Assembly: GCA_009746045.1 (NCBI GenBank)
Contig: RPFO01000256.1
Coordinates: 293,501 to 357,500, forward strand
DNA from: Mesostigma viride
Lineage: Eukaryota; Streptophyta; Mesostigmatophyceae; Mesostigmatales; Mesostigmataceae
Direction of reading: 5' to 3'
Length of the DNA stretch: 64,000 bases
Shown here: positions 1 through 63,707 of the stretch, piece by piece
Layout: each line of letters starts with the position of its first letter
How positions within the stretch are numbered: the stretch's first letter is position 1
Program-made: the position numbers and the translations under genes
The notes under the pieces: generated by a model
The model's input: only the letters and a program-made list of their open reading frames with translations
Database searches by the model: none
What the model was told of the DNA's origin: nothing

Positions 1-353
1 TTACTATGTTGGCCCATGCACCTGCCTTGGTGAAAATTGAAAACACGTTGACCTCCTAACTGTAGGCTACCCTATGTAACCTAGCAGCCAGCAAAGAGTA
101 GACTACCGGGCCAACCCAGTTGCCTAGGTGATCTTTGACGTGACAATCAGCCCTAGGTAATGAACCGCTTACCTTTGCGTTGTAATAAACCCTCACATCA
201 TGAGTGGCTTACCTCAGCGGCATTGCATGTGAGAAAGGACTTCCCGCCCCCATGCTAACCTTGGCGGCGTTCGACTTGACACAGTACTCCCTAACCCAAC
301 GCTTCCCTTGGCAGTGTAGCACGCGACATAAGACTCCCCACCCCCAAGCTTAC

Positions 354-3300
354 CTTGGTGACGTTGGACTTGACAAAGTACTCCCCGCTGGGCGTTTTTG
401 TCATCTGGTCCGCGGACAGGAATTGCACCTCATTGCTGGGGACCTGGGGGACGCAGCAGAAGGGGGGGTAGTTGCAACATTATTATATACTAGTACTGCG
501 ATATTCGTAGGCAACCGCACCTTGTTATGGGGGACCAGGGGGACGCAACAGAAGGGAAGGAGAGTGACGGCTAGCCGCAGCGTTATAGTAGATACTCGAA
601 TGCAAGTGTACCTCGTTGCCGGGGACCTGGGGGGCAGGGCAGCAGAGGCAGAGGGTGCAGGCTACCAGCACTGCCATAAATTCATGCACCTGCATCTTGT
701 TGGTGGAGACCGGGGGCAGAAGACTTGGTTTACTTTTTATGTGGGTATTCAAGAAGCTATTGCTTATCGACATGCCAGAAGCGGTCGAGGGTTGGCAACT
801 ATTAGCTGTGCCATTAAAGAAATGGGAGGTATCCGTTGGCCGTTGCCACAAATGGTCATCATGGATAGGTCTTTCATTTTACTAAACATGGAGTTGTTGT
901 GGCCAGCAGCCAGTAGAGAGCCAAGGAAAGGGAAAAGGAAGGAAACGGAAAAGAAAGGAAAGGGAAAAGGAAGGAAACGGAAAAGAAAGGAAAGGGAAAA
1001 GGAAGGAAACGGGTAAGAAAGGAAAGGAAAAAGGAAGGAAAGGGAAAGGAAAGGAAAGGGAAAAGAAAGGCAAGGGAAAGGAAAGGAAAGGAAAAAGAAA
1101 GGAAATGGGTAAGAAAGGAAAGGAAGGAAAAGGGAGAATAACATGAACCACGGCACCACGAGGTAACCCCACTTGTCCCCAGGGGGGTGTCTCCGATTGT
1201 CCCAAGGGACAAGCTAAAGAAGAACGGTCAGGTGAGCAGGGAGCTCGTGAGCACAGGTAGTGCGCCTACCACCCAGCAGCGACGAGCATAAGCTGTTCAG
1301 TAGCACAGGTTGCAACACTCCCTCCCAAACACCCCCACTCCCCCCGCTCACAACATCATCGGAAGCACCAAGTCCAGTTGGTTCCCCACACACTCAGCAG
1401 CGTGCACCAGCAGCGGATGCGCGGTTACCAGCCGCCAGCATCAACCCTCAGGTAAGACACAGCCAGTACTATAGTAACTTCAATATCCACTCCCCAGCGT
1501 GCAGAAGCATGGGTAGCACGCCTATCAACCGCCGGCATCACCTGCAGCATCACCCCATAAACTCATCCGCTCACCTGCGTGCACTAGCAGAGGGCATGGT
1601 CCGGCCCCACCCGTCAAGCACACACCTAGTTGATTCCCACCCACTCCCCAGCGTGCCGTAGCAGAGGTGTGCGGTTACCAGACGCCAGCATCATCCCTTG
1701 ACTACTATACTTAGTAATGGCACTGCCCACCCACCAGCGTGCAGTCGCACTGCCCACCCACCAGCGTGCAGTAGCACAGGTTGTGCGCCATCATGATGGA
1801 GGGATACAGCGACGCAAAGTCCAGCGTCGCGATCGGGTCCTCGTAGAAGCGCGCTTTCGGTTCCAGCACCTGTCACCGCGGGATGAGAGGACAAGGAACC
1901 AAGCGGGCAAGTAGGGATGACAGGGCGTCAGCGAGAAGGATGTTGGGTCCCAGCACCTGCCACAAACGTTGCGGACCGGCGGGCAACAAGCATGTCACTG
2001 CGCAGGCAATCGCTTTCACTTCCAGCACCTGTCACCGCATGATGAGAGAGCGCAAGGAACCAAGCGGCAAGAATATGAGCAGGGAAGTGCCTACATGGTC
2101 CGCGACAAGGAGGCACTTTTGGTTCCAGCAACTGGCACAAACATTACGTGCATGTGAGCACCAAGCACGCCACCGAGCAAGCAATGAACCACCCAAAATT
2201 GTCAGCCAAGCTCCCAGAGTGCCACCGAGCAAGCAACCAACTACCCATATTTGTCAGCCAAAGGCAGCCAGGAAGCACCAAACTTGTAACTGAGCACGCA
2301 CGCACCAAAGGTGCGGTTATTGGAGACGTGCAGGTCACCCAACACAGGACAGTATGATGTTTCATTATTTGAATGGTAAGGCAATAGGAAGTACGCACCA
2401 TACAAACATGCATGATGCCAATCCTGTTTTCATTCAACAAATTACATTAAGTTTGATGGCCATCCATGCATGTGTACCCCAGCATGCCGCACGAGTGCCC
2501 ACGATGGCTTTTTCCTACGGGGGGGGCGGGGGGGGGGGGCGAGTAGTCTTTAGAACCATGCATGCCCATGGCTGCAGCGGGAGCTAGTACTCACACTGGC
2601 CCCTCTGACCCTCTAGGTACACAAAAGGGTTGCATTGTGGGCGCCAGTAGTACTCAGCATGGCCGTCTCGTGCGGAAGAGTGCCGCAAGCAAAAGTACTG
2701 ACCGTGGCCAGTATAAGCCTCTATCTCCGCAAAAGTGCTGTATGCGCTACATCTCACCATGTTCTCTATAAGCAACACAGCTGTCTGTGTCTGCGGCCGC
2801 ACTGCGGGAGCCAGCACTCACCGTGGCCTCTATAAGCAAGAAAACCATCTGTGTGTGCAACCGCGTCACGGGAGCCAGCACTCACCGTGGCGCCCTCGTA
2901 CGTCTCCTGCCCCCCCTCCCCCTTCATGTTGGGGACGAGAAGGTTGCGCTGCTTGGCCTTGCGCAATATCTGGGACATGACCTGGGTAGGATGGCCACCG
3001 CGCGTCGATGTGGGCACAGCACGGCCGCGCATGGGTGCACAACGGGGTCGCAAATGTGGGTACATTAGGGGCCCAAATGTGGGCACAACAGGACGCAAAT
3101 GTGGGTACGATAGGGCCGCAAATGTGGGCACAACAGGACGACAAAATGCTTGATCTTGCACAGAAGAAGGGACATTACCTGGGGCCAGCGCTGTTTGTGA
3201 ATTTGGACACCAAAAGGGCTACCTTTGTGGACCCAGAAATGCCATGGGTGTCTACACACACAAGGGCAGCCTTTGTGGACACAGAAACGCAGTGGGTTAA

Positions 3301-6300
3301 GGCACGAAAATGGGCAGCGCTTGTGGACGCGCAAAGATGCCACAACAGGGAAACCCCACCGGGTGATTACGACGAGGGGGTCCACTGGGTGTTTACTAAA
3401 AGGGGGCCCACCGGGTCTTAACTAAAAGGGGGCCCACCGGGTGTTAACTAAAAGGGGGTCCACCGGGTCTTACATAAAAGGTTTCACCGGGTGTTAACTA
3501 AAAGGGGGCCCACCGGGTCTTAACTAAAAGGTTTCACCGGGTGTTAACTAAAAGGGGGCCCACCGGGTCTTAACTAAAAGGTTTCACCGGATGTTAACTA
3601 CAAGGGGGCCCACCGGGTCTTAACTAAAAGGCTTCACCGGGTGTTAACTACAAGGTTCACAAGGTGATTACTAGAAGGGGGGTAACCGGGTGATTACTGA
3701 ATGGAGATTAACCGGGTCTTTACCACTCGACACGCACCGGCGAGCCTTTTATTATTATTATTACTACTATTTGGTTGTGGTTGCCAAAGGGGCCGTCAAC
3801 GATTGGCACGGAGGCAAGGCGGCACACCTTGGTGCTCTGGCTGGGTGCCAGCAGAAACAAGCGCGGTGGATTGGAACAGGAAGATGCCAGTAGGTGTGGG
3901 ACACGTAAAGGGCAGTCGATGTGGACACATAAAGCATTGGATGCAAAACGGCAGTCAATGTGGACACATCAAGCATTGCTTGTAACGAGAAACCCCACGC
4001 CCCATACACCAGTAGATCGCGCCTTGGTGCTCTAGCCGCTCGCCAGCAGAAAGGGAGCTAGCCGACGTGGACACGCAGGGCAGAAGACACAAGGGCCGAA
4101 AAGGGCAGAAGAGGGCTGAAAAGAGCCAAACAGGGCCGAAAAAGGCCGAACAGGGCCGAAAAGGGCCGACAAGGGCCGGAAAGGGTAGAAGGGCAGAAAA
4201 GGGCACGACACAAAAGAGGCAGAAGATTTGGACTTGGAAATGGCAGCAGGCATGGACAGGAAGCCACGCCCGAAACAGCAAGACACGGTACCTTGATGCT
4301 CTGGCCGCGTGCCAGCAGGAAGGATAAGGGCACGCCCGTCACGCGCGCCATCTCGATGTAGTTGTACATGAACATGAGCTTGTCCAGTAGCCGCTGGGGG
4401 AGGTAGGCGTCCTGAAGCAGTTCGTGGGGGGGAGGGTGTTCCATGGTTGGTCCATGGTGGGTCGGTTGTTCACAGAACCGTGATCTATATATATAGTGAT
4501 CTATATATAGTGATCTATATATAGTGATCTACCACGTGGCTGTAGATTCCCATAGTCTTGTAGATCAACATGAGCTTGACCAACAGCCAGTGAGGGAGGG
4601 AGGTGCCATGCATATAGGGAGTATCTGGGGGGGAGAACATGGGTCGGGCCGATCATCCCGAGTACAGTGTTGTAGAACAGACTGGTTGTCCAGCAGGCAA
4701 TGGGGAAGGCAGCAGGCAATGCGGAAGGCACATGTCCTGCAAACAGCATGCCCGGTAGGCATGCACACCGCACAAGCAGTACTTGGGCAACTTGCAAGCC
4801 ACATCACCAAGCCTGGCTTGCTTCTGCGCATGGCATGCAAATACTTCTTTACTTGCTTAGCAAGCCTGGCCATGATGCATACCTTTCAGCAGGACACAAC
4901 TAGGTGCAGTACCCACATCAAGTGACGGCTACGTTCCAGACTTGAGCACTTCGAATTAGGCTTTCTTTCTGGAAGTCTTTGTGCAATAAATTCTCACACG
5001 GCTACCTTGCAAACCACATCCATTCTGTCAATGCACAGATTTTTTATACATCCACAGGCCTCTTGTTGCGATGTGTACATCCAAACAGGACATCGCTACG
5101 TGCACTACCCAGCTGAGGTGGCAAACCCACGTGCCGTGTGAAAGCACCCACCTTGAGGCAGTTGTCGCCTACTTTGAAAATCACACTTTGAGGTGAATGA
5201 TATGCACGTCTGGTTTTGAGAACACCTTGGAATGGCGATTTGCGGCCAGAGTAAGGCCCCCACCTTGAGGCAGTATCCCCGCGAGGTGGACACCATACCT
5301 TGAGGGCATGCAAAAAATGGCGTGCCGGAATACAGTACCCACTGTGACGCAGCTACCACCGTGAAACAGCTACTTCTTCGATAGCACTTTGACGTGCCAG
5401 GTAATACTGCCAACCTTGAGGCAATAGACGGCTACTTTCCAACCATATCCGCGCGCAGGGATATACGATTACTCCGACAGCATGATGCCCACAATGAGGA
5501 AGGAAACGGATCGTTCGAAACCATCTCCATAGCCAGGCTATAGTACCCACCTTCAGGCAGTAGACGGCGAGGCGGTGGCGCGTGGAGTCATTGCCGTTGA
5601 AGAGGTCGCTGATGATCGAGTGGTGCACGTCTTCTTTCTGTGTGATTGGCCACCGATAGGTAGCCAAGGCAAAAAAAAGAAAGAAGTTGCAAAGCAGGCG
5701 GACATGTTAACCCATTTCTGTGGTTAGCCGCCAGAGTATGGAACGGGAAATAAAGCAAGGAAGGTAATTGCTTCCTTAAAAACAAGTTGGGCAGCAAGAT
5801 TGGCCAACAAGGTCCACGAAACGATGCAGGTGTAAAGTAGCGAGTAAAGGGGAGCCATGATCTCAAGCGCTTACTTGAACCAAAGACGTTCAAGACTTCA
5901 TGATAGCCATGTTGTTAAATAAGGCATTGTAACTCTGTATCTTAGCCATTATATTCCAAGCAAAAGCGTTAATGACTGCACGTTAGCCATTATTTTCAAA
6001 GCAAAGGCGTTCAAGGCTGCACGTCCGCCACTAATCGACCATTTGCCCTCAACCAGCCACCTCTACCGAGCATTTCTTCGCGCCCACCTGCTCGCCTAGG
6101 AAGTGCGCGGAAACAGCATTGAGGGAGTAGGACGACAGCTTGTGGTCGCGCTGGATGGCCTGATGAGGGAAACAAGCAGGGAGGGAGGGGGTAGCAGATA
6201 ACCAGGTAAGAAATTAATAAAGCACACATTTCAAGGGTCTTGTTTAGACGACAGCCTGTGGTCGCGCTGGGTGGCCTAGTGTGTGGGAGAGAGGGAAGAG

Positions 6301-9300
6301 GAAGCAAATAGACATGAAAGTGTTTTACGAATGAATAGAAAAAGGCTCTTGTTAGCACAAAGGCTTGTTGGCGTGGCGCGCGAGGCACACACACCAAGAG
6401 ATAGAGGGGAGGGGGGGGAGGTTGAGAAAGGTATGCCAGTAAGAAAAACACAGGAATTGTATTATGGGGGTACGTGCGACCACACTGTGAGGCTTAAGAC
6501 AAACAAGAAGGCGATGTCAGAAAAAATGGCAAAGCATGGAGAGACCGCAAGATGTTTTATTCATGCTTCAAGATGGCCACAGTTAAACATTAGTCCTATG
6601 ATAATCGTTATTAGACTTACAACTAGTGCTATAATAATCATACTACTAGTACATTTAAACGTGAGTGCTATGATAACTCAAATTTCGCAGCCCAGCACCA
6701 GAAAATTATATCATGGGCGAGTCAACTCGGCACATGTCACCCCCCAAACGCATGACAGCGGTATCGCCTCCACCGACAGTGGTATCGCCTCCACATTGGT
6801 CACGTGCCATGTTACTTGACCGCCATGCGTCCATGCTTGCTTGACAGCCTGGTGGCATACCTTGCTTGACGGCCTGGTGGCATACCGATCAAGATGCTCG
6901 TGCCCAGGCCACCACAAGGTGGAGGATGGCCGACATCGTGTCGATGTATCATACACGAGCCACGTGCCGACGTGCCGCCACCGGGCGACAGCCACGGTGG
7001 CGTATCACAACGACTTGTACACGGCGCAATCGATCACTATGCAGTTTCTCTCGCCAGCCTTTTCCCTCCGTTGCCCTCATCATTTGCGCCCCTTACCATC
7101 ACTTGAAAATGATTTGCGTACGTACAACCCCCTACTTTTGTAGTTACACAGACCGCGCATGGCGGCCGACATCCATGACAGAGTGCCTGTGTGGATGTCC
7201 CAAGGGTCGCCGGGGACCGTGGGGAGCAAAACGCCATGCCGGTGAGCCACGGCGGTGGGATCACCCACCTGCAGCAGGTCAAACTGCACACGGCCCTCGA
7301 TGGTGATCTCCTTGCTCTCTCGCGTGCCGTACGCCCTGGGAAGGGCACGGGTAAAAAGCACAGAAACATTCGGTTGAGACTCACGAAAAGCACAACATGG
7401 TCACATATCGCAGTAGGATTCTCTCATTAACATGGCGAGCAAAGGGCGTCCCGCCAGGGGAACTGGCGAAAACAATGGCATGCCGTGAAGGTGGTCACCT
7501 TGCCACGCGCGAGTGAATGATTGCATTGATAATATTCGTTGCCCTGGTAAGAAATGGGGGTGCGTAGGTATGGTGGACAAAAGGCCACGGACCGCCAGGG
7601 GAAAAAAAATTGTTTTCTCGCCATAGACGCCCGGGTCTCTCAACCGGCGAGAATGGCACAAAAGTGACGGCACAAGAAAGGGGGGGTGGGGGTGGTGGGT
7701 AGGGAGGGAGGCATGCAGACACACAGATGCGCACGTACATACTTATATGTAGATCAGCCATACATACAACCATAGTACCCTGTAGAGAGACTGAGGGAGA
7801 CAAAAGCAGAAGGGGGCATTGTGTGAGTGTGTGCGAGCATGTACGTGTACGGGTGCCAGTATGTACTTCCCACCTCCACTGCCCATTTTACTCCTGAGCC
7901 CCCAGCCTCCCCTCTCCGCTTCGCCGACTCGCTTGGAGGGGAACATTGTGTCACGCTTCACCATGGCCCATTCCTCCCCTAAGCCCAAAAACACATACCC
8001 ACAAACCCGTGACCCGCAGCGACTCACTTGGAGGAGAACGTGGTGTCGCGCACGCGAACTTTGCTGTGCTTGACGCGGCCCAGCAGCTCGAAGCCTTCCA
8101 CGCCCAGCGCCTTGGCACGCTGGGGGACATCACCATAGTGCATGGGTGGTGGCGAAGAGTAGTGGCGAAGAGGTAAGAATAGGTGCATGAGTACAACGAA
8201 GCAGCTCAATGCCCTCCACGCCCAGATCCTTGGCAAACTGGGCAATACAACGCGTGAGTACCCAGTACGCATGAATGCACCAGTACATGGGGGAGAGGGA
8301 GGAAGAGGGGGAGAGGAAAGAAGAGGGGGAGAGGGGAGAAGAGGCGAAGAGGGAGGAAGAGGGGCAGAGGGGAGAAGAGGGGAAGAGGGAGGAAGAGGGG
8401 GAGAGGGGAAAAGAGGGGGAGAAGGAGGAAGAGGGGGAGAGGGGAAAAGAGGGGGAGAGGGGAGAAGAGGGGAAGAGGGAGGAAGAGGGGGAGAGGGGAA
8501 AAGAGGGGGAGAGGGGAGAAGAGGGGAAGAGGGAGGAAGAGGGGGAGAGGCGAGAAGAGGGGGAGAGGGAGGAAGAGGGGGAAAGGGGAAAAGAGGGGCA
8601 GAAGGAGGAAGAGGGGGAGAGGGGAGAAGAGGGGGAGAGGGATCAAGAGGGGGAGAGCGAGGAAGAGGGGAAAGGGAAGAAGAGGGGGAGAGGGGAGAAG
8701 AGGGTGAGGCGACGGCATAAGAAGGGCACGCTGGAGATGTCCCGCGACGCATATGTGACGGCGGACAGCAAAGAGATGCTCCGCAATGCGTGAGTGGTGG
8801 CGAAGAGTAATCCATAGTTGCATGGGTAAATGGGAGTGAGGGCAAACAAAGGGACAGTGCACCTAGATGAAGAAGGGAGAGGGGGCAAAAGCGAGGGGTG
8901 ATGGAAGGAGAAAGAGGAGGGGCGAAACTAACGACGCAGGATCGGAGAACAAGTGGCAGACTTTGCCTTGTGCAGCAAAGGCAGGGATTGCAGGGAAATA
9001 ATGGCCTTATGAACGTGCTGCAGCTGCTGTGATGAAGAAGCAGAGTGGAGCCTGGACAGGCTTGACCATTGGGCCATAAAGGAGCCTATCGATCGGCATC
9101 CTTGGCCGTGTTTCCGGCAACACAGACATGTATTGCACCCTGGCTATGAGGAAAGGCAGAGGCCTATGAATATGCCGCAACCACATGCAAGGGAACGTAA
9201 GAAGTAGAAAACCCGGCAAAAAGCGTGTTGTGTGAACAGATGTCTGCTAGTCCTGATTATGACATACTCTTTCGAAAGGACTCCTTGGAAAAACTTATTG

Positions 9301-12300
9301 CTGCCATACGTACGTCGATCAGGTATGGCATGTCAAAGTTGACGATGTTGTAGCCAATCAGAATGTCCGGATCCGCCACGTTGATCAGGTCCTGTGGTGT
9401 GGGGGTGGTGCGCAGGGAACCACCCAAGCCAAGGCCGTGCAACCGTGATGCCAGGTAGGTGCAATCGTAACCAGGGGGCGGTCGTCAGCAGCCTCGTACC
9501 CAAACAGCTTCCGTTGAGGATAAAACCCAGATCTATGACAGAGGCTGGATGTACGCGCATGCGAGTGCGATGGACATACACACCCGTATTGCTCAAGTGG
9601 ACCGGCGGGCGCAGCAAGTTGCGCCACCGTTCCAAGATAAACAAGGGGTGGGAGAGGGAGCCAGCGACACCAACAGGACGAATCACCGGCACAGCTAAGG
9701 ACCAGCAGGGGCTCTGCATCCTAGGACGCATACGGCAAAACCTCTCCGACATCGAGGTATTAAGTAGACAGGTATCATGTCGCAGTTGAGCAAGGAATGG
9801 TACACTAAATGCTGTTGACAGTGCGCAGAAAAAGTATACAGGCATACTACTATCCACACAATGTGTAGTCTAGTACTGGGTATACTTATAATATATAGTA
9901 CTGTATATATAAGTTTATAATAGTATATCCTCACTACAGATGTGTAGCCTGGCGTCGCCCCTCACCCGCCACACCTTCAACAGCTGGCGCTCATCGACGT
10001 ATCAAAGCACAAGCAGGAACCATAGAAAGATTTTTAACCTAGCAGCCGTCACAAAACTCAAAGGACACTTAACCACCACGCCTTCAACAGCATCCGTTCG
10101 TAGTTGTAGCAGAGCACATGCAACATTGATAGGAGGAACGACTTGACTAGCACGTGGCAATAAGTTTCTACTACTTACTTAACTGGCATCCGGCTCCAAC
10201 CTAGGAGGGCACGTACCCGCCACGCCTTCAGCAGCTGGCGCTCATCGTCGTAGCAAAGCACATCTGTGCCTACGATGGGGGAGCAGCCGCGCAGGCAGAG
10301 CACGTTGCGGATGATGGGTTTACTCTGCCCCTGCAGCGTGACCAGGTTGGCGATCTGTGGGGGTGGGGCAGAGGGAAAGGGTGGAGGGTAGGGATGGATT
10401 GCGTGGGTCAACGGGCAAGAAACGTCATGAGTTTTATTTCACCCTGCTGCAGCCTACGTACTGGCAGGCATGTCACCAAAGTCAGTCAGATTAATCTCAT
10501 GGAAGGCAGGTTCATAAATTCGATGCTGCGGTGTCTCGTCCGCACCCGGATGACCGAGTCTCGCTCCGTAGCACAAACATTATCGCACTTATACATAGTA
10601 TATGCTGTATTGTGGAAATTTATACTACTATGTAAATGCCGCTGCCTGCTTATATGTACCTGAATGACCGAGTCGTGTTGCGCCTCTGGGAAGTGGCCCT
10701 TGCGGCCTGCGCACTCAATGTCAAAGCTGAGCACACGGAAGGGGGCCAGCCGCGCGAATCGGCCTTCCGGCTTGTGGCTGATGAGGTCCGCGAACCTGCA
10801 AAAAGGGGCCAGTGTGCCAGAAGAATGGTACAGTTGTGCATGGTGATTGATGTAACGGTAATTCATCAGTAGTGAATGATTAGTGCATCGAGAGTCAATA
10901 CAATCATCTTGTACCACTTCGGACGGCAGCACCCTTAACACAGTGGTGGACCGCCGGCAACACGGTGGGGGTGGGGGTGGATGCGTGCGCACTGGCAACA
11001 CGGGGGCGGATGGGAGCAACTATAATACGACCGAGGCCGAGCCACAATTCTGGTGTGGATTGCTTAAACTTGAGCTGATGCAGACTAAACACAGGGCCCC
11101 ATAGGACGTGCTATATTAGAGCCTATGGATGCTCTATTAGGGACAATAGGATCGGCAAAATAAGAGACCATGGGATGCCACAGGAATAACAATTGAGCTG
11201 GATTGCAGGTGATCCTCATGTCATATTCATTAGAACCCTTCAGGCGGGGGGCCTTTCTGCAAGAGCGCACAAAGGCATGGCCATACCAATCAGCCTTCCT
11301 TCCTCGCCTTCTATTCTTTTTCCCACAACGGGGAGGGCGCACTACGGGGGCTCTCTATTCTTGATCCCACAACGGGGGCTGGACAAGAACGCTTATGCCA
11401 TCCCAACACGCTCCACACACTTATTACTTAATCAACGAATTAATCAATCAAGTAAACATGTTCCCCGCAAGGATAAGGCAGGCAAAACACAGCCGCCACC
11501 TACTGGAGGTCGATCTCCAGGCAGCAGTCGGTGAGCTTGTCGCTGGCCGCCCTCACGCGGTAGCTGCCTGCGCACGCCTCGAGCCACATCCCCCCCCCGA
11601 TGTCGCGGTCGACCATGAAGCGCAGCGTGAAGAGCACGTTGCTCTCGTACGTAGTGAAGGACTGCGTCCCGATGTCGAGTCCTGGGATGGCGAAGCCCCG
11701 CTCGAGGATGCCTGGGGCAGGGGGTGCATGGGGAGGGTGAGGGGGGGGGTAAAGCGTGTGGGTGCATGAGCGTGAGGGGTGGGGGGTTAAAGCGTATGGG
11801 TGCATCGGGCAGGGTGTTGGGGGGGGGCCGGAAAGGGGAGGGGGAGAAAGGGGGGCGGGGGGGGAAATGAGAAAATGAATGGAAACGATTTCAAGATGTG
11901 CCCACTGGTTTCCACCTTCCTGGGGAGCATGAAGAAAAGAGGGAGTAGGTGGAGAGGGAAGGCAAATATGAGGAGTCTTTCTGTGAAACTAACAGCAAGG
12001 AAACACATACATGAACTAAACAGGATAAGTTGCTCCCCACGAGCATGCTGTACCCGTGTCAGCTAGTACCCTAATAGCCCCAGACCCCACATGACGCTCA
12101 CTCATCAAGCGCTCCGCTCGTGCAGTGGGCAACCCGTTGGACACGTCGAATCGCCAAGTCATGTCCCACCATCACTAGCAGCCCCATAGCCCTCCACCAG
12201 TCGCCACCCCACGCCCTGTATTACTCCTCTGTCTACAACCCTCACCTCGCGCGGAGGGAATCGTCATGAGCTCACCCGTGGCCCCCACCAACCCCCAACT

Positions 12301-15300
12301 AACAACACATTCACGAATAAAACACTTGTAATACTGCTACTAAGTATATATATCTAATATATAATTACTAAATATATATAGAGAGAGAGAGCGATCCCAT
12401 CGAGTACTCGGCAGTATCAGGACCTCCTCCACCCCATGCACGACCAACCCCACCAAACCATGTACTATAAGCCCTCACCTCGCGAGGTGGGCACCATGGT
12501 GGGCAGCACCCTACACAACCCCAACAAACCGTATGCTATAACGCGGTCACTATAAGCCCTCACCTCGCGCGGTCGGCACCATGGTGGGCAGCGCGAGGGT
12601 GATCTTGAGGAAGAGCTTGGCCTTGCTGCGCTGGTAGTACATCAGGCTCTCCTTCTCGGAGATGGAAACACTCAGCACGTAGAGAGGCTCCTTGTCTGCA
12701 CGGCGGCTCGATGCCTTGACGGCCGCCTGGAGGGAGGTGGCCGAGAGTATGAGCGAGTTGAAAAGGGGGGGTGAACGGAAGGACCGAGCGAGCCGCCAAG
12801 CAATCGATAAATATTTGCGACGTGACATTCAACATCACAACGGTTGCTACGTGACACCACCCGTGTGCCAAAAACAACGTCACTATTGAAATTAGTTGTA
12901 ATACCCCCAATCTGATGCTATCTCATGTTTGTCCCATATCCCCATCACTCGGCCTCTATTTGTCCGGTTGCCACGTGACATGGCATGGGATACACAATAC
13001 GGCCACGCATAACGTGGCTTTGAAATCCCATCACGAGCCATGCATCCATGCTCAGGCGGTGGCGGAACAGCGCAAACGTAGCTTATGCTGGCGCACAAAA
13101 GGGACACAAGCTAGCACACTACATGGGGTACAACAGTACACCAGTCCGTGCCTCAACAAATCTCAACCTAGCATGTATCCCGTATCCCTATCCGCGGTAC
13201 GTCCGTGTCGACCGCACAGCACAGAACGCTCACATTCAGGCTGCTCCGGGTGTTCCGGGATGTACTCTCCCATTCTTCAGGCCGTTCCGGAATATAGCCC
13301 CCACCTAGCACCTAGGACGCATGTGTCCACATCCTCGCGACTCCTATTCATGGGCTGTTTCAGAGTTCGGAAGGTCTTGCACTCTACCCACACCAACCGC
13401 ACACTCACGTTCACGCTAGTTCAAAACTCTCTTTTAATTGCCCAGGTCACTCACGTTCAGGCTGTTGCGGAAGCTCTCGCAGTGGTCGGGCTGGAATCCC
13501 CGTGGCATCGCGATGTAGAAGTAGGGCAGGAAGCCGTGCACAAACGCGCACACGCTGTTGCCTGTCGGGAAGGGCAAGAAAGCAAAGGCAAAAGAAGAAC
13601 GAAGTTTGTGCGGAGGGCGTGGGAGCAAGGGCTAGCATGCAGGCAGTCAGCGGGCAGCAGCCAGCAGAAAGGTTGGATTATGAATTATTCCAGGCGAATG
13701 TGAACAGGCAACAAAGCGCAGGCAAAGAGAAATGGGCAGGACCAAGATTGCATTACTGAGAAGGCGTGGGTGTGGGTGTGGGTGTGGGTGTGGGTGTGGG
13801 TGTGGGTGTGGGTGTGGGTGTGGGTGTGGGTGTGGGTGTGGGTGTGGGTGTGGGTGTGGGTGTGGGTGTGGGTGTGGGTGTGGGTGTGGGTGTGGGTGTG
13901 GGTGTGGGTGTGGGTGTGGGTGTGGGTGTGGGTGTGGGTGTGGGTGTGGGTGTGGGTGTGGGTGTGGGTGTGGGTGTGGGTGTGGATACATGCATGCACA
14001 GCAAGAGGTTGAACAAGTGTCAGCACTCTGGCCGAGATGCGAGGAAAACTACTCTCTACTGCTTGCTCTTCATGCAAGGCGACTCGGTATGGACCGGACT
14101 GCCGCAGCCACTTGAAACCAGTCTCAACTATATACTCTTCTATATTAAGTCACCACCAATCCCAAACGATTCAAGGGGCCCAATCCCAGCTTACCCGAAG
14201 TGCCACCACGAGTCTCACCGTATCTTCAAGGTCACCAGCCCTTTCCTGGCTCCCCACATGAGGGGCCTTCAACTGGTGCTAATGATATGGTGAGCCCGCG
14301 CCATGACATTCGAATCCAAACTCCAAGCACCTAACAAAAGCCATTGCCTTGCAAGACTACAGCTCGCCATGCAAAACCGTAAAGTACTCTTCAAGCCACG
14401 CGACTTTCCCAAAAGAGTGCTACATGAGGAGTGCTTCTTGCGGAATTCGTGCGTCCCAATTCGCCCAAAAGATATCCGCAAGGCATGGCTGGCAGCTCGC
14501 CGGCATGACTCCAGGGAGATTGTGGACATTAAAGTTAGGGAGTTCACGTGCACTATCAACATTAAAGAGCGCGAAATGCTCTACAAAGTACACTCCAGTA
14601 GCTGGCTACTGTAGCCTACACGCCATGCCAAACCAAGGTCCATGAAAACAATGCCCTCGACTCGTATTCCAGTTATACTCTACAAATACGATATCCCCTA
14701 GGACGCCTCTGGATGGGGGGTCACCCTGGCCAACCTAGCATCTGATTACGCCAGAAAAAGTGGCTGTACCTTCTTCGGTCACCCCGGCAAACCCTAGCAT
14801 CTCATTATGCCAGGAACTAGAGGGTGGCTGTACCTTCTTCGGTCACCCCAAAGACACGGAGGATGGGGGCCTGCGCCCTCGAGGGGAACGATGGTAGATA
14901 CTCCGCATCCGGCTTGCCAATAATGTAGTCGATCTCGAGCTGCTGGAAGACTGATACAACAGATAGAACAGATAGGACAGATAGAAGGAATAGACCAATA
15001 GATGATGTAGTCAATCTCGAGATGCTGGATGACTGGTACAACAAATGGAGTAATTAAAACAGATAACACAGCAATATATATTACCTTACAAATGTTTCAA
15101 TGCCTTTATGCCCGGTAAGCGTCTAGGCAGTTAATGGCAGCACTAACTTGAGCCGTGTGCACGGGGGGGGGGGGGGGGGGGGGGGGGGGGAGAGCTTAGA
15201 TACAGAGATGTTTCGGGAAAGACGCCAGACAGTGGATCAGCCATTCAAATGTGCACCTTTGCACAAAAAAGGGGTACCTATATTAGTTTGTGTGCACCCC

Positions 15301-15727
15301 TCCGCCATCAAGACATAGCTATCCTTAATCCTGAAAGGGTTAGAAATTACTAAAATGACCAGGAGTAGAAGGATTACCATTACGTAGTCGGAATTGAAAA
15401 TGCCTTTAAAGAAGAGTAAAATCAAATACTGCTGTGGACATATACCGTCAAGTACAAACACTCTTCTTGTATACCTATGTCTTTTTCCTTGGGGTCGAAG
15501 GGTGGCAAGTCCGGTCGCTTCCATCGTTCGCCACGCTCTGCAATGTTCTCCAGGATAACAGCCTCTTCCGCAGCCACTTCATCGATGTCTTCAGGCATGT
15601 AGCCCGCTTCATCCTCCTCGTACAACATTTCAAGCATTTCATTTTCCGTGGGAGCCCCATCCTCATTGAAAACGCGCTTTGCCGGTGGCGGAGGCCCCCC
15701 GGGAGTAGGCCGCTTTCGCGCATCCAT
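354..15727 (-). CDS. POLD1: DNA polymerase delta catalytic subunit (partial, 16 exons, 3' part beyond left edge)
   Basis: Family-B replicative polymerase: 5'-3' synthesis plus 3'-5' proofreading in the nucleus. Exons on the minus strand: 15475-15727, 14834-14950, 13455-13561, 12564-12726, 11504-11711, 10660-10795, 10217-10354, 9314-9391, 8028-8119, 7269-7335, 6088-6159, 5551-5637, 4292-4411, 2886-2981, 1762-1869, 354-443. All have GT-AG borders and the frame is kept throughout, giving 644 codons. The start is the ATG opening [11 protein letters not shown], a short basic N-terminus. Exonuclease motifs: Exo I FDIEC (D308, E310), Exo [10 protein letters not shown] (D394), Exo III YCLKD (D507). 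Polymerase motif A is DFASLYPSI (D595), about 7-8 residues earlier than in the human enzyme as I remember it. Motifs B and C and the C-terminal cysteine clusters fall outside the window. Introns carry many copies of exon ends. Junctions are inferred from protein conservation; small shifts are possible. Confidence 0.93.
918..1137. repeat. GGAAA-type polypurine repeat
   Basis: Imperfect array of GGAAA, GGGAAA and AAGGAAGG units, nearly pure purine on the plus strand, within POLD1 intron 15. The gene's sense strand is therefore polypyrimidine here. Confidence 0.9.
1260..1761 (-). repeat. Donor-side echo array of POLD1 exon 15
   Basis: The real exon 3' end starts at 1762, read on the plus strand as CCAGCGTGCAGTAGCAC. 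Degenerate copies of this junction begin near 1733, 1648, 1576, 1494, 1396 and 1270. The copy at 1733 keeps the flanking CCCACC that reads as a GTGGG donor on the sense strand. Linking segments such as GGTTACCAG..CGCCAGCATCA also recur (near 1422 and 1674), so the duplicated unit spans exon end plus intron. Confidence 0.75.
1925..2150 (-). repeat. Acceptor-side echoes of POLD1 exon 15
   Basis: The real acceptor region at 1862-1912 (TTCCAGCACCTGTCACCG, then a stretch containing AAGGAACCAAGCGGG) recurs at about 2018-2070 almost intact. More weakly it recurs at about 1949-1966 and 2120-2137. These lie upstream of the exon on the sense strand. Confidence 0.65.
3354..3735. repeat. Minisatellite, ~25 bp unit, in POLD1 intron 13
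   Basis: About a dozen imperfect units of the type AACTAAAAGGGGGCCCACCG, each followed by GGTCTT or GGTGTT. They alternate with a shortened form (AAAAGGTTTCACCGGG), giving a visible 50 bp higher-order period. Confidence 0.9.
3826..4055 (-). repeat. Donor-side echoes of POLD1 exon 13
   Basis: The exon 13 end, read on the plus strand as CCTTGATGCTCTGGCC followed by GCGTGCCAGCAGGAA, is repeated as CCTTGGTGCTCTAGCC at about 4022 and CCTTGGTGCTCTGGC at about 3828. Both include the CCAGCAGAAA continuation. Confidence 0.7.
4077..4215. repeat. Degenerate AAAAGGGC-type short repeat
   Basis: Repeating GGGCCGAAAAGGGCAGAAG-like units of about 10-11 bp in POLD1 intron 13. A similar but independent array lies at 62290-62715 in the phosphodiesterase gene. 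Confidence 0.8.
5140..5550 (-). repeat. Donor-side echoes of POLD1 exon 12
   Basis: The real junction at 5544-5570 (TACCCACCTTCAGGCAGTAG on plus) is echoed near 5407, 5266 and 5146 as CCAACCTTGAGGCAATAG, CCCACCTTGAGGCAGTAT and CCCACCTTGAGGCAGTTG. Spacing is 120-140 bp. Another weak copy is near 5290. Confidence 0.75.
8185..8262 (-). repeat. Acceptor-side echo of POLD1 exon 9
   Basis: The stretch around 8205-8248 (CCCTCCACGCCCAGATCCTT then GGCAAACTGGGC) copies the exon 9 5' end at 8085-8125 (CCTTCCACGCCCAGCGCCTT then GGCACGCTGGGG). It lies upstream of the exon on the minus strand. Confidence 0.75.
8284..8706. repeat. Long polypurine tract (GAGGGGGAGAGGG units)
   Basis: About 420 bp of almost uninterrupted purines on plus, built from GAGGGGGAGAGGGGAGAAGA-like units. 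It lies in the POLD1 intron between exons 8 and 9. Mirror-symmetric purine runs of this kind can form triplex (H-DNA). Long open frames in it, for example a proline-rich one on minus, are composition artefacts. Confidence 0.9.
9955..10120 (-). repeat. Donor-side echoes of POLD1 exon 7
   Basis: The exon 7 3' end (10211-10265, plus strand CCGCCACGCCTTCAGCAGCT, then GGCGCTCATCGTCGTAGCAA) is repeated at 10065-10120 and again at 9958-10014. The farther copy is the better preserved and still contains CAGCTGGCGCTCATCGACGT. Confidence 0.85.
12235..12520 (-). repeat. Donor-side echoes of POLD1 exon 4
   Basis: The real junction (about 12551-12600, GCCCTCACCTCGCGCGGTCG then GCACCATGGTGGGCAGC) is copied near 12471-12508 with GCACCATGGTGGGCAGC intact. 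A weaker copy lies near 12238-12270. The closer copy sits about 86 bp from the real site and keeps the CTCAC that reads as a GTGAG donor. Confidence 0.85.
13766..13985. repeat. (TGTGGG)n hexanucleotide microsatellite
   Basis: 220 bp, about 37 perfect copies, in POLD1 intron 2. Translates in all frames (VG, CG, HP, TP) and so produces false open frames. It does not match the plant-type telomere repeat and is internal. Confidence 0.98.
15163..15190. repeat. Poly(G) run of 28
   Basis: Uninterrupted G28 in POLD1 intron 1. Other homopolymers in the window are G21 at 33353-33373 and about C19 at 33682-33700, both in SecA introns. Confidence 0.95.
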
Positions 15728-28814: not shown

Positions 28815-28847
<33 letters not shown>

Positions 28848-36363: not shown

Positions 36364-36439
<76 letters not shown>

Positions 36440-47410: not shown

Positions 47411-47469
47411 CTCGTGGAGGGGAGTAAAGGGCCGACAGTGAGCCACCCGCATGCACTGGCCTGATGTCA

Positions 47470-52470: not shown

Positions 52471-52840
52471 AGGCCTAGAATGTTGCCTAGCTGTGCCAAC
52501 ACACCTAGTCACGTGCCGCCAACGCACGGTACACAACCAGCCATAGCCTTAGCCTAGTCCTAGTACAGCCATGCTACGCCCTGGCTATGTTCAGATTACT
52601 TGCCCACGCTCCTTGCTATGATATGCTCACATGGGTCTTATTGCACCCACAGTTTGCCGGATCGTTAGCCTGTCCTTTTAGCTAGCCGCGCCCGATTGCA
52701 GCTGTGGCATGCCTTTGGCATGAAGGAGACTGGGGGTCTCTGCCCTTTCTCCTGTAGTGCACACACAGGGATTAAAAGCACTTCGGTGCTCCGTGACTCC
52801 CCAACGGGAGCACGAGTTTAATTAATTAATTAATTAATTC
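52471..52840 (+). mobile_element. Retroelement 3' end (ORF1-linked UTR plus stem-loop tail)
   Basis: Repeats the 47135-47410 UTR, then GGTGCTCCGTGACTCCCCAA CGGGAGCACGAG and (TTAA)n. It shows that ORF1-like and ORF2-like remnants share one 3' terminus. 52838-52916 repeats a segment found at 20066-20150. Confidence 0.8.
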
Positions 52841-52924
52841 CATCCCATGTTCCCCTCCCACTGAGGACTTATTATATGCTCACGTGACGCAGTCACGTGT
52901 CTATTAATTAATTTATTAATGGTA

Positions 52925-53850: not shown

Positions 53851-53918
53851 CAACATAATTATAAAATGAGCAAATTATCTAGAAAATAAAATAATAAATA
53901 AATCCATTTATTTATTTA

Positions 53919-55745: not shown

Positions 55746-55776
<31 letters not shown>

Positions 55777-56095
55777 TCGTTCGTTCGTTCGTTCGTTCGT
55801 TCGTTCGTTCGTTCGTTCGTTCGTTCGTTCGTTCGTTCGTTCGTTCGTTCGTTCGTTCGTTCGTTCGTTCGTTCGTTCGTTCGTTCGTTCGTTCGTTCGT
55901 TCGTTCGTTCGTTCGTTCGTTCGTTCGTTCGTTCGTTCGTTCGTTCATTCAATCATTCAATCATTCAATCATTCAATCATTCATTCATTCATTCATTCAT
56001 TCATTCATTCATTCATTCATTCATTCATTCATTCATTCATTCATTCATTCATTCATTCATTCATTCATTCATTCATTCATTCATTCATTCATTCA
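53919..56095. repeat. Giant (TTCG)n array with (TTCA)n borders
   Basis: 53975-55943 is about 1.97 kb (roughly 490 units) of TTCG. The only interruptions are one extra T near 54224 and a block of about nine CTCG units at 55716-55751. Borders are TTCA/ATTC repeats at 53919-53974 and 55944-56095, including AATCATTC variants. Reads as (NERT)n on minus; no gene. Confidence 0.99.
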
Positions 56096-56099
56096 ATGA

Positions 56100-57040: not shown

Positions 57041-57049
57041 GTGGTCGTC

Positions 57050-57482: not shown

Positions 57483-57546
<64 letters not shown>

Positions 57547-57776: not shown

Positions 57777-60700
57777 CTACTTCGCCTCGACCTGCCAAAA
57801 CGGCTCGCCCGGCGTATGCTTCTGGGTCTCCCAGTACGCAATGTTCGACAGCATCTGGTCCAGGATGTTCTGGGAGGCCGGGAACGCAGCCGCCCACGCC
57901 TCAAAGAGAGGCATTGCGATGAACTTGAAGAAGCTGGTCTGGCTCTTGGGCACATTGGTGTTGAGGCGGTCCATGAATGAGGACACGGGGAGCTTGAGCC
58001 GGCGCTCCTCGTCGCCTTGCTTGAAGAACTCCTCGGTGATCGCGTCCGTCCACTTCTTGTGGATCTCGAGCGACTTGGCCGAGTGGCCGATGTCCGCGAC
58101 TTTCAGCGCGACCTGTGGGCAGGTGGCGTAAATACGCAAGAGCAGGGAAGTAGGGGTAAAACCAGGTCAGGAGTAGGTTATTTAAGTGGCATCTTGCGAG
58201 CGGACTGACAGCTGAGGTATGAAGAAAAAAAGTGAGAGAGGCAAAGATGAGAGAGGTAGAAATGAGCGATCAAGGAGTCAAAGTCCGCCGTCAAGCGCAA
58301 ACCACCGAGGGAAGTGCCGATCACATCAAGTACCGCAACAATATATCAGCAACCACAACAATATACAATACCAATAGGGGGGATGAAAAGCCTTAAGGAT
58401 CCACATGCTCATATCCACCCGCGAACACTGTTATTGAGTAGTAGCCTCCTGTAGCCCATTTGTAGCAGCATGCTGTTAGTGGGCCTGGGGTATCAGCAGG
58501 CTAATTATTATTTTTTTTATTTTTTTTTACCGGTCTTACTTTGATGAATAACAGTTACTTGCATAGTGGCTATTGGATACATCGGTAAACCCACCTGCAG
58601 CAGAAGCAAGCGCTCGGTTGGCTTGAAGCACCGAAAGGCTGGCTTGTCAACAAAGCCGCTATTCCACATGCCTAATTTGATCGCATCAGCATGTGGTCCG
58701 GCCCCTACGGCATCGGGTGCATAAACCAAACAGTTAAAACTCCTAGTTACCTGATACCGCATCAGACCGCCCAACTGCAGCAGCAGCATGCCCCGGTGGG
58801 CGTAGGGTACCGGGAAACTCGGTCGTCAAAAACGAACCCCTTTAATTCTTTAATCAGGTCCCTATTCAGTTAGCTCACCTGCAGCGGCAGCACGCCATCT
58901 GTCCATTGGCCCAGGGTCAGTCAAGTAGCATCTACAAGCTTAAAAACTAATGTAAACGGCCTTGTGATCCAACGTGCCGCAGCGGCACGAGGTCCGTCAA
59001 GTGGGTCAGGGGCGGCAGAATAGGATCTACAAGCTAAATAACAAAAGTAGTCAACCCAATAACAAATTTTACATAATAAATGTTACATAGCAATTGTTAA
59101 ACAACATATGTCTTGGGTAGGAGATATCACGGGCCCACTTGCTGCAGCGGCACGCGGTCCATCAATATACGTACGTCAATAATATAATATAATACCATTT
59201 CGTGACAATCAATGGTATAATATGATACCAGGTCGTGACAAACTCGTCAAGTCCCCCCCACTTGCGAATTTGATACCCCTCGTTTTCAATAGCCTAGCCG
59301 CCGCAGCGTCACGCCGTCTGTCGAGTGGGTCAGGGGCAGCAGAATGGTACGTACAAGCCAAATAATAAATGCATTCTCTATTTCTTTATCATGGGCCCAC
59401 CTGCAGCAGCAGCACGCGGTCTGTGGGGGAGATCGTCTCCGGGTCCAGCGGCTTGGCCTTGTCCTGCGTGCGCTTCTTGAACAGGTCCAAGATCTCAAAG
59501 TGGCGCTTAAGGTCCGACCCAAGCACCATCTCGATGATCGTCGCACGCAGCAGCCGGAAATCCTCCGGGTCGAGCCCTTCGAGAAAGTTCAAGTCTGGCC
59601 GCCGCAACAGCTTGAACGCCTCCGCCACGTGCATGTTCTCCAGCACGGTCCGGTCGTTGTAGAAGAGCGCGAGCTCGCCCTCGGAGCGGACCAGGAAGTC
59701 GTTGTTGCGGCCCGGGTGCTTGTAGTCGTGTACAAGGGCCGCGGTGATGGCAGCCAGCACGTCAATGCGGGACAGGAAGCGGCCGACGCCCGAGTGCTTA
59801 ATGAGGTGGTAGGTGGAGTTGGCGACGTCCGCCACATGGGTGGAGTTGTGGTAGTCGTTGTTGCACATGTTGCTGCGGGGCCCGGGGGGGGAGGGGGGAG
59901 GGAAGCGCTTGAAGAGGTGAGCTTGATGGAGTTCCGCATGAAGAGGTGGGCATGAAGTGGTGGGCATGAGGAGGTCAAGGGGGAGGGGAAGGGGGAGAGC
60001 TTAGGGACGAGATCGGGTGGAGAGGATGGGTAAGAGCCAGGGGGTTGCGGTGGGTGGAGTGCAGCAGGGGGGGAAGTTGGGGCTGGAGGAAGAGAAAACG
60101 GACGAGCGGGGGTGGGGTGGGGTGGGGTGGGGTGGGGTGGGGTGGGGTGGGGTGGGGTGGGGTGGGGGTGGGCTTGAGTCAATGGTCTGGGAAGAGGCTT
60201 GCGTGGCTGGGTGGGTGGGGATGAGAGTGCCAAGCAATCGCTCACCCAGGAATATTGAGCGCCAGAAGTATATATTCTGCTCCGTGGGAAAAAAACACAC
60301 TAAACAATTAGGTGGGACAACCACTACCGTAGACACGCGTCACCGCCCCCTTCTTGTCGTGCATCAACCAGGGATGAATGGTACCTCTAGTCAAACAGAT
60401 TGTACCCTCCCAAACGAATGTACACATATGAATCAATGGATGGATGGATGGATGGATGGATGGACGGACGGACGGACGGACGGGCGGGCGGGCGGGCGGG
60501 CGGGCGGGCGGGGGCGGGCGGCGGGCGGCGGGCGGGCGGGCGGCGGGCGGGCGGCGGGCGGGCGGGCGGCGGCGGGCGGGCGGGCGGGCGGGCGGGCGGG
60601 CGGGCGGCGGCGGGCGGGCGGGCGGGCGGGCGGGCGGACGGACGGACGGACGGATGGACGGACGGACGGACGGACGGACGGACGGACGGACGGACGGACG

Positions 60701-63700
60701 GACGGACGGACGGACGGACGGACAGATGGACGGCCGGACAGCGTAACGGACGTAACGGACGGACGTAACGGACGTAAGGGACAGCCGTACGTACGGATAA
60801 ATGGATGGACACACGAATGAAGGAACAAAGAACAAGTGAAAAGACACGCACCCGTCGATGACCGAGAGGAACCGAATCAGCTTGTTCTGGGGGAGGTGGA
60901 ACTGCCGCAACAGCCCCGCCTGCTGGTACAGTGTGAGCCCCATGAACAGCGTAGGCATCCCGTTGCTCGCCTTTTCCAGCTTCCACGTGTCGTAGTTCCA
61001 CTGGCCGACCGACGCCAGGCACCGCCGCGCCTCGTCCGACGTGCCCAGAACGTCCGACACCCGCTGCATGCGCCGGACGGCCGGAATGGGCTGGTCTATG
61101 CCCAGGTGAATTATGCCCCCCTGCGCGGCGAAAGCATTATTGGTGCCATTCCCACAGCTTACGCTGCGGCGCTGGGGCGTCCCAGGCCCCACAGGGATCA
61201 TAATCGGGAGGCCCGTGCTGGGGTCTAGTTTCAGCTGCATGTCGTCAAGCTGGGCCGGGCTGCGGAGCGCCTCGGCAACCGCGGCCACGGTCCACTCGGA
61301 GAGCGACTCGCCCGCCGTGTCGGTGCCTGAGTCCATGGGGGTCCCTGGGACCGTCTCGCCAGTGAAGAAGGGCGTCTCGGCCGACATGGAAGTGCGGGAG
61401 CGGCGGTCGTTCACGGTCCCTTGGATCCGCATCACGGACGAGCGGAGCCAGCGCTGGGTGTCCTCATCCACCTCCTCATAGATGGCCTTGGGCCGGTGCT
61501 GCACAAGTATAAACATTCAGAGTATATTCACAGAGTATGTATAGGCACATTCAAGGGCGTGTGTGCAAGGAAACGAGATTGTGAGTCATGAGGCGTATAG
61601 CGACTTCCTCGTATACAAGCGGGCGGTTGTTGCGAAGAACGATTCCAGGATGCCCATGACAAGAAACAAGGATATGCATAGCATGACTTCCTCAAACACC
61701 TCTTCGTGTTACCGTCTGGGGGCGTTGCTGGCTAAGTATATTCAAGGGTTCAAGGGCACGAGACAAGGCTGTAGGTAACCTCAGCCCCGCAAACAAATTA
61801 CCCGGCAAATTCTGCACCCTCCCCACCCCTTCACATTAGCCAGCGCACAAAACACTCAGTGACCCCATCCACCCCGCCCTGCTGCCCCTCACCTTGGATA
61901 GAAGGGACGGCATCGTCAGCTTCCCTGGTTGTGGCATGCCCAGCTGGTAGCCCAAATTGCCCACCACGTCGCTCTCTTGGAAAATGGCGGGCATGTGAGG
62001 GTCCGGCATCTCCAACAACTTGGCCATCTCGGATAGGACCTCGGGGCCGGGCTGACGAACGCCTTGGGACAGCTCACTGGGGGGACGAGAATAATGATAA
62101 ACAAGTTAGGTGCACCAAAGATTTCATGCATTGTGAGCACCGATGGAGTCATTTCACACCATGTGTGCACGACAGCAATGTCGCTAAGGCTGCGTCTATT
62201 TTATACGCGATGATCTAGAGAGCTGACTAGTGTTATCTAGAAAAATGCAAGGGATTGCCTGGCGAAGCGGGTAAATAAACATTAAGAGAGCCAAGGGAGG
62301 TCAGTCAGAAAAAAGGCCAGAAAAGGGCAAGAAAAGGGCAAGAAAAGGGCGAGAAAAGGGCAAGAACAGGACAAGAAAAAGGGCCGAAAAAGGGCAAGAA
62401 AAGGACAAGAAAAGGGCAAGAAAACGGCAAGAAAAAGGGCTAGCAGAGCGCAGGTAAAAGGCTCAAAAAGGGCTCCATAAGGGCTCAAAAAGGGCTTCAA
62501 AAGGGCCTCTAACGGTCTCAAGATGGCCTCAAAAAGGCCTTGAAAAGGGCTCGACAAGGGCACAACAAGGGCTCGACAAGGGCTCAACAAGGGCTCAACA
62601 AGGGCTCGACAAGGGCTCAACAAGGGCCCAAGAAGGGCTCCAAAAGGGCTCAACAACGGCTCAATAAGGGCACAATGACGGCTCAACAACGGCTCAACAA
62701 CGGCTCCAAAAGGGCAGAAAAAAGACAAAAACACAATAAACGACCAGAAACGGCGGCGGGCCAAGATGTGGTGCTTGGGGGAGGGAGACCAGAGAGAAAA
62801 TCTCGAACAGAAGGTGGCAGGACCTTAGCATGGAGAATGGGGAAAATTCACAGCGGGGAGGAGTCCTAAAGGAAATCCTTGCTTGTGGAAGGGAGGGTGC
62901 CTACTTTGCTGGTATAATCATGGGGTACACAACTGCTTGTGCACTAGGATGCCTATCTCAGCAGGTTGAGCGCCATATGTCCGAATCATCCATTCATCAT
63001 GCCTGAATCTACTGTGCATTAAAGACACCGCGGACAGCCAAACTACTGGTACACCATCCCGCCTACCCCAGTATGTTGTGCAGCTTCTCGAGCGGCGTGC
63101 GCATGTCAATCGACGGCTCCATCCCATGCTGGAGGCTCGCGAGGTCCATCCTCGAGCCCTCACTGCCCCCCATGCCGGCCGCGGCAACCGTATCAAACGC
63201 GCCCCCCAGCCCCAACGGGACCACCTTGCCCGCCCCTACCCCCCCATGGCCCGACGACGTCGAGATCCTGCCGGCTGCCTTGACCCCCCCTCCCCCCCCA
63301 TGGATCGACGTTGAGATCCTCGCGGCCACCTTGACCCCCCCACCCCCACCATGGCCCGACGTCGAGAGCCTCGGACCCTCCTTTGGTGATGTCAGGGAGT
63401 CGTCGGTCTGAGGGTCAATCTTCCCCCCAACGAGCGCGCCCGCGCTGTTGATGTTCTGGCGCAGCCGCCGGTACAGAGCGGTGCCGTCAAAGGGGGCGTT
63501 GGTGGCGAGCGCTGTGAGGAAGGTCACGGCGGCCAGGATTATGATCCAGATGGAGAGCACGCGGGGCGCCGGGTCGCGCCTCTCGTTGATGATGGACTCG
63601 AGCGCGGCGACGGGCGTCAGTATGACCGCCACGAGGGGAAGTTGCGCCGAGCGGCCGTACACGCGCCCGCGACAGAGGAGCTTCCAGGCACGGCCGTGGG

Positions 63701-63707
63701 CTTGGAT
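57777..63707 (-). CDS. Membrane-associated cyclic-nucleotide phosphodiesterase (partial, 5' part beyond right edge)
   Basis: Class I PDE: hydrolyses cAMP and/or cGMP. Visible exons on minus: 63067-63707, 61893-62076, 60852-61498, 59401-59872, 57777-58112, in frame, 759 aa counted from the first visible residue. Near the start two hydrophobic helices (LPLVAVILTPVAALESII and VLSIWIIILAAVTFLTALAT) suggest membrane anchoring. A long Gly/Ser-rich linker follows, then the catalytic domain: YHNSTHVADV (H499, H503), HDYKHPGRNND (H539, D540, H543), KVADIGHSAKS (D655), EEFFKQGDEE and the glutamine segment SQTSFFKFIAMPLFEAW. The metal-binding H/H/D/D set is therefore complete. The stop at 57777-57779 may be intronic: a GT donor at 57791 fits the echo pattern beyond it. 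Upstream exons are outside the window. Confidence 0.88.
58590..59325 (-). repeat. Six donor-side echoes of the phosphodiesterase exon ending at 59401
   Basis: The true junction on plus is GGGCCCACCTGCAGCAGCAG CACGCGGTCTGT. Copies lie near 59298 (GCCGCAGCGTCACGCCGTCT), 59131 (GGGCCCACTTGCTGCAGCGG CACGCGGTCC), 58975 (TGCCGCAGCGGCACGAGGTC), 58874 (CTCACCTGCAGCGGCAGCAC), 58772 and 58590 (CCCACCTGCAGCAGAAGCAA). Intron words (GTGGGTCAGG, ATCTACAAGC) are shared between copies too. Confidence 0.9.
60112..60170. repeat. (GGGGT)n pentanucleotide array
   Basis: About 11 copies in the phosphodiesterase intron before the exon at 59401-59872 (sense orientation CCCCA). Confidence 0.95.
60436..60740. repeat. 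Compound tetranucleotide array (GGAT, GGAC, GGGC, GGAC)
   Basis: About 300 bp: GGAT units, then GGAC, then GGGC with GGC slips, then GGAC again. The neighbouring units differ by single transitions, suggesting one array drifting by point change and spreading by slippage. It is intronic. Confidence 0.95.
62285..62720. repeat. Degenerate AAAAGGGC / CAAGGGCTCAA repeat
   Basis: About 430 bp of decamer-like units (AAGAAAAGGGC, then CAACAAGGGCTCGA) in the phosphodiesterase intron. Open frames here (QGLNKGSTRAQ type) are artefacts. Confidence 0.9.

Follow-up and report, generated by a model that had tools for sequence, protein, structure and literature searches.

Tandem duplication is a described route to new introns, treated in a review (PMC3443670) and in reports on potato (PMC4974935) and Drosophila (PMC2891723). 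In the potato gene the duplication affected the very border between intron and exon, and a tandem duplication of 83 bp within an intron is mentioned as well (PMC4974935). For the stwintrons of Lipomyces, which are nested introns, the corresponding account proposes formation by duplication of the donor in units of 4-7 nucleotides (nt), and suggests fill-in end joining as the source (PMC7138796). Here we analyze the introns of a 64-kb stretch of the Mesostigma viride genome (hereafter the window; contig C1646 of an assembly of 440 Mb in 2243 contigs), in which degenerate copies of exon ends and their splice sites lie within the adjoining introns. Minisatellites offer another comparison, being head-to-tail arrays with units of tens of nt that expand locally. 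Gao and Lynch (2009) are said, going by their title, to have dealt with within-gene duplications and the creation of introns.

We favor, with a probability of roughly 0.78, the reading that introns lengthen by repeated tandem duplication of short segments spanning the exon-intron border, the inner copies decaying. As in intron gain by tandem duplication, splice sites are provided or copied when gene DNA is duplicated, and one of the copies turns into intron; yet the published cases are described as separate events yielding new introns, whereas here existing introns would lengthen serially with the coding sequence kept, and intron positions would stay unchanged in the process. The likeness to the account proposed for Lipomyces stwintrons lies in the duplication in place of an existing intron's donor, but here the units measure tens to about 140 nt, include exon, come in rows and do not imply nested splicing. 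The difference from minisatellites is that one edge is pinned in a coding exon, one unit being conserved while the others decay. Contiguous head-to-tail units of the minisatellite kind are seen in two arrays described below (GluRS, 91 nt, and SecA, 42 nt), and copied tandem flanks at 26 of 50 copies only. Among the titles and abstract openings listed by our searches of open-licence papers, we found no description of intron growth via serial border duplication.

The main test compared 36 nt of each coding exon end with the adjoining intron and with 100 dinucleotide shuffles of that intron, the query being restricted to exon sequence so that the splice-site consensus was avoided. Among the window introns, donor ends beat the best of 100 shuffles in 22/43 cases and acceptor ends in 14/43, while reverse-complement controls did so in 1/43 and 2/43, respectively. 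When the intron on the opposite side of the exon was used, only 1/39 donor ends and 2/39 acceptor ends gave a match. With both controls near zero, the rule of side holds: copies of 3' ends lie downstream of the exon and copies of 5' ends upstream, just as an earlier note on this DNA, made from the sequence alone, had claimed. A BLAST search for repeats within introns plus at most 60 nt of flanking exon returned 84 direct pairs against 2 inverted ones, and 1 in Markov-random sequence.

In a larger set of 76 introns (152 exon ends), 72 copies were found in the exons' own introns, compared to 1 for reverse complements and 0 when each end was searched in one random other intron, so that neither shuffled nor non-adjacent ends matched equally well. 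Significant copies were present on the donor side of 31 introns, on the acceptor side of 17, on either side of 45 and on both sides of 3 (reverse complements: 1 and 1). No copy was found for 108 ends, one for 27 and two for 13, with three, four, five and seven copies at one end each. The note had therefore been right about the kind of sequence, but its two to seven copies in most long introns of all four window genes were too strong a statement, given that ends with copies mostly have one or two and that two of these genes (EEP and PDE) show them in one of four introns each. Introns with copies were longer than those without (median 916 vs 680 nt; P 0.008, or 0.03 when the HSP70 family is removed). 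Aligned donor-side copies are intronic, located 33-988 nt from the donor and often followed by GT, the filter having excluded copies that abut the following exon.

How far the copying reaches into the exon was measured in 41 introns of at least 250 nt. On the donor side 59% of the exon windows starting 24 nt inside the exon are copied and 12% of those at 60 nt, with no copies at 72-108 nt (26-36 windows per offset). On the acceptor side the fraction peaks at 34%, falls to about 1/37 at 72 nt and is zero deeper in the exon. Tandem duplication of whole exons, carrying both splice sites, was rejected on this profile, that is, on the lack of donor-side copying at 72 nt or more into the exon and the about 1/37 on the acceptor side.

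The splice models behind these counts were built from homology and open frames. SecA was located by tblastn with the E. coli protein, its splice sites and frames being read afterwards, and in POLD1, EEP, PDE and other parts the exon ends were placed partly with the help of family motifs. The window holds four intron-bearing genes:

1..15727, minus strand: POLD1 (DNA polymerase delta catalytic subunit), 16 exons in the window, running past its left edge
21191..24768, minus strand: gene of the endonuclease/exonuclease/phosphatase family (EEP), 5 exons modelled, supported by the open frame and Pfam
25871..44122, plus strand: SecA, apparently of the plastid type, 21 exons and 20 introns, supported by tblastn, an open spliced frame and Pfam SecA domains
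57777..63527, minus strand: 3'5'-cyclic nucleotide phosphodiesterase (PDE or PDEase), 5 exons modelled with an approximate 5' end, supported by Pfam

All 43 modelled window introns start with GT and end with AG, the spliced frames of the four genes are open, and Pfam agrees for the four modelled proteins. To these we added the rest of POLD1 (stretch L055), glutamyl-tRNA synthetase (GluRS, stretch L058, on the same contig as the window and picked regardless of content), a mitochondrial-type HSP70 (L050), other HSP70 genes, one CCT8 intron (L060) and two CCT3 introns (L062). The resulting nine gene sets comprise 78 introns, of which 76 were tested and 2 dropped (<200 nt). The counts leave out incompletely delimited GluRS introns (1-2, 4-5 and those after exon 8), the HSP70 candidates L052, L053 and L057, single weak junctions in L040, L043, L044 and L051, and the CCT piece L063; the GluRS 3-4 donor was placed 2 nt short. 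Copies are found in 16/19 SecA introns, 19/24 POLD1 introns (9 of these 24 lying wholly or partly beyond the window, with the tail in L055), 3/5 in GluRS, 4/5 in the mitochondrial-type HSP70 and 1/2 in CCT3, with 1/4 for both EEP and PDE.

The clearest array lies at the end of GluRS exon 6 (position 5323 of L058). Its 91-nt unit consists of about 30 nt of exon, the donor and about 60 nt of intron; units are contiguous, five of them (the exon's own included) are nearly identical, and decayed ones follow beyond, at 455 nt (exon identity 0.90) and 635 nt (0.81), with another visible by eye in between. Decay here is staged, and the array reads, from its sequence, as border duplication at a young stage. 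In the window the corresponding example is SecA exon 20, which ends at 43446 and whose unit holds 19 nt of exon, the donor and 23 nt of intron. The copies and arrays of the window are the following:

43428..43617, plus strand: tandem array at the SecA exon 20 donor (found with TRF), 4.5 units of 42 nt, 89% matches
43671..43733, plus strand: additional copy, donor included, of the end of SecA exon 20, exon part 87%
33977..34060, plus strand: copy of the SecA exon 10 end with donor and 37 nt of intron, period 101
35096..35143, plus strand: end of SecA exon 11 copied over 48 nt, gtgag included, from alignment
37549..37679, plus strand: two copies of the SecA exon 14 end with donor (37549-37625 and 37646-37679), each with an exon-frame stop
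41494..41575, plus strand: acceptor-bearing copy of the start of SecA exon 18, lying upstream of it, exon part 88% and intron part 89%
207..386, minus strand: array spanning the POLD1 exon 16 donor (TRF), 47-nt units, 67% matches, exon end at 354
1366..1673, minus strand: end of POLD1 exon 15, present in four decayed copies downstream of the donor (1640-1673, 1567-1593, 1487-1527 and 1366-1423)
2011..2181, minus strand: acceptor-bearing copies of the start of POLD1 exon 15, lying upstream of it (2011-2071 and 2097-2181)
9964..10119, minus strand: end of POLD1 exon 7 copied twice, with better preservation in the more distant copy (91% vs 79%)
12091..12507, minus strand: three copies of the POLD1 exon 4 end, the nearest best kept (12464-12507, 12233-12271 and 12091-12143)
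22734..22808, minus strand: acceptor-bearing copy of the start of EEP exon 4, lying upstream of it (exon start at 22674), from alignment
58590..59321, minus strand: six decayed copies, with donor region, of the PDEase exon end at 59401

The SecA exon 11 end also has a second, shorter copy, exact over 22 nt of exon, 33 nt from the donor.

Tandem duplication should copy the intron next to the border along with the exon, and we compared the DNA between exon and copy with the DNA beyond the copy. Homology of these flanks was found for 26 of 50 testable copies, versus 1/200 unrelated pairs; the test covered copies lying within 320 nt of the border, except for 2 whose spacer was too short. Copies also tend to be better preserved near the border: the nearer copy was the better one at 11 ends, worse at 4 and tied at 2, and distance correlates negatively with score (Spearman -0.31, P 0.009 over 72 copies, a P value that ignores the presence of several copies per end). 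Together with the contiguous GluRS and SecA units, these flanks support the proposal of the note and make serial tandem duplication across splice junctions, followed by decay, the best account of the copies.

Several results weigh against this reading. Tandem flanks went undetected in 24 of the 50 testable copies (gapped test, within 320 nt). Among 24 copies with an exon identity of at least 0.90, 12 have an intron flank at or below the 95th percentile of unrelated flanks, and several of those end a few bases past the splice site. The age order is not strict, the farther copy in POLD1 intron 7 being the better one. Introns of the HSP70 family (0/12) and the CCT8 intron (0/1) show no copies. 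Local direct duplicates are also common in the interior of introns: they were seen in 24% of complex windows far from borders, 28% of those near them, 37% of those across junctions and 7% of intergenic ones.

The 24 copies without a copied flank could reflect later indels or a second, patch-like process. Indels can indeed hide a tandem flank, as POLD1 intron 4 illustrates, where homology is broken after 15 nt in an ungapped view and is significant in the gapped test; intron DNA changes fast, and other flanks may be masked in the same way. Alternatively, many copies could be patches, i.e. pieces of exon end copied during break repair with template switching. For this speak copies whose similarity ends at the splice site or immediately beyond it, such as those of SecA intron 11 (48 nt, 92%, at a distance of 143 nt) and POLD1 intron 7 (48 nt, 92%, at 251 nt). 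Insertions made by templated repair should, however, occur in either orientation, while pairs here are almost all direct, and the contiguous GluRS and SecA arrays do not fit patches either, so that we regard this explanation as doubtful. A different possibility is that tandem duplication falls evenly across intron DNA and that exon-end copies stand out only as their coding partner stays recognizable. The wealth of direct duplicates in intron interiors speaks for it, as does the finding of duplicates in 12-44% of windows up to 250 nt from a border when no filter is applied; the exon side of a copy is also expected to remain recognizable for longer. But in the window 41 of 84 repeat pairs touch an exon end against 8.9 expected, a ratio of 4.6, whereas simulated uniform duplication with slowly changing exons gave touching fractions of 0.17-0.31 and ratios of 0.9-1.8, in simulated introns that averaged 530-660 nt and were shorter than the real ones. 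We also grouped repeats into families and shifted each at random inside its own region, leaving out families without any possible placement: 46/78 families touch an exon end compared to 8.5 expected. Among families with at least 90% identity, in which faster decay of intron-only pairs has the least effect, the excess remains (14/27 vs 2.3), although the BLAST low-complexity filter conceals some interior repeats and may inflate it. Even duplication is quite unlikely in our view.

Two further explanations fare worse. Copies could be selected as functional decoys or alternative exon ends, and acceptors give this idea some room: AG is kept in 20/23 copies (mean exon identity 0.81), or in 14/17 under another filter (0.85), somewhat above the neutral expectation of exon identity squared, in small samples with alignments anchored near the border. 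Donors do not follow: GT is kept in 28/41 copies at a mean exon identity of 0.82, and in 31/49 at 0.88 under the other filter, which is at or below that expectation within a copy or so. The sequences thus lend no support to selection on, or use of, donor copies. The staged decay in GluRS and the exon-frame stops in both SecA exon 14 copies go in the same direction, making functional decoys very improbable. That copies belong to a dispersed repeat or an introner-like family has next to no probability: the copied part is the coding sequence of the adjoining exon, and the opposite neighboring introns and the random other introns gave the near-zero counts reported above. An introner or dispersed element was accordingly rejected as the origin of the exon-end copies, since 152 ends, each searched in a single randomly chosen other intron, yielded none. 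Dispersed repeats do exist in the window. They are located between the modelled genes (17475-17814, 20345-20672, 44455-44754, 47140-47413 and 52469-52740), with pairwise identities of 76-93%.

Serial border duplication, then, would proceed as follows. A segment of about 30-140 nt, judging from the clear cases, would be duplicated repeatedly across the exon-intron border, each round adding on the intron side a copy of the last or first tens of nt of the exon, of the splice site and, in most cases, of part of the intron. Selection would hold the outermost copy, which remains coding, while the inner ones would turn intronic and decay, so that splice sites that are dead or serve as decoys would come to stand in a row. 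Slippage or fill-in repair of staggered breaks may be the source of the duplications, and an array, once begun, would seed further copies. Internal exons are mostly about 60-250 nt long and the introns of SecA and POLD1 have a median of 897 nt, which suggests exon definition; in that case a half-exon copy without a nearby partner site would probably escape recognition by the splicing machinery.

Exon-intron borders are likely, though not proven, to be favored starting points of duplication. Growth may also be one-sided. Copies at both ends of an intron are rarer than expected (3 of 76 introns; Fisher P 0.048), and in the copy-rich genes, a set picked after the data were seen, only 5/55 introns have both (P 0.007). 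A tendency of copy-rich genes to extend their introns from one end is therefore supported, but not proven. We can only tentatively suggest that borders are true hot spots of duplication and that a mainly one-ended process, perhaps linked to transcription or splicing at the border, contributes, as a major source, to the intron DNA of some genes.

Exon-end copying is present on at least three contigs and is strongly gene-dependent. The pattern recurs on further contigs, as in the mitochondrial-type HSP70 and CCT3, but it is not uniform, given the HSP70 family and CCT8, and these counts fall short of showing the genome-wide mode of expansion that the note had envisaged. A separate test of the HSP70 family gave one marginal donor match in 13 introns. 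This family is expanded (L040-L048 and L051) and lacks exon-end copies, unlike the mitochondrial-type gene. Between its paralogues L042 and L043, which are 97% identical, we found no new duplications but 8 small gaps of 1-8 nt each. CCT8 exons occur on two contigs (C887 and C1641) with matching spacing save for one intron, which differs by about 3.2 kb; the shorter version of this intron (C887, L060) contains no exon-end copies.

Donor sequence is weakly associated with copying. With the HSP70 family left out, the G fraction of the first 30 intron nt is 0.386 in introns with donor copies and 0.346 in those without (P 0.16), and donor copies were found at 22/33 GTGG/GTGA donors, 8/19 GTA donors and 2/6 GTGC donors, a weak association with G-rich donors. 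Two simple repeats lie in introns of the window. A (GGTG)n array of about 42 units (36714-36881) begins precisely at the donor of SecA exon 13 and looks like an expansion of the donor motif, and a perfect 6-nt array (GTGGGT on the plus strand) of about 37 units (13766-13985) is located in intron 2 of the minus-strand gene POLD1. A third, a (CATT)n array that covers 2.2 kb with about 547 units (53905-56095), has all six frames open for most of its extent. Elsewhere in the assembly, contig C2011 (1.49 Mb, L010) carries intronless, bacterial-looking HSP70 and Cpn60 genes, has 36% GC in the part examined and probably represents a bacterial associate.

The origin of intron DNA is usually hard to trace, as the sequence it came from decays. 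In the present case one copy is held in place as coding exon, and for this reason the sequence reveals where the added intron DNA came from, in which direction the intron grew and how old the additions are relative to one another. The same introns offer natural rows of competing splice sites, such as the five near-identical donors in one GluRS intron, the true donor included, so that the choice of the true site by the spliceosome is directly testable.

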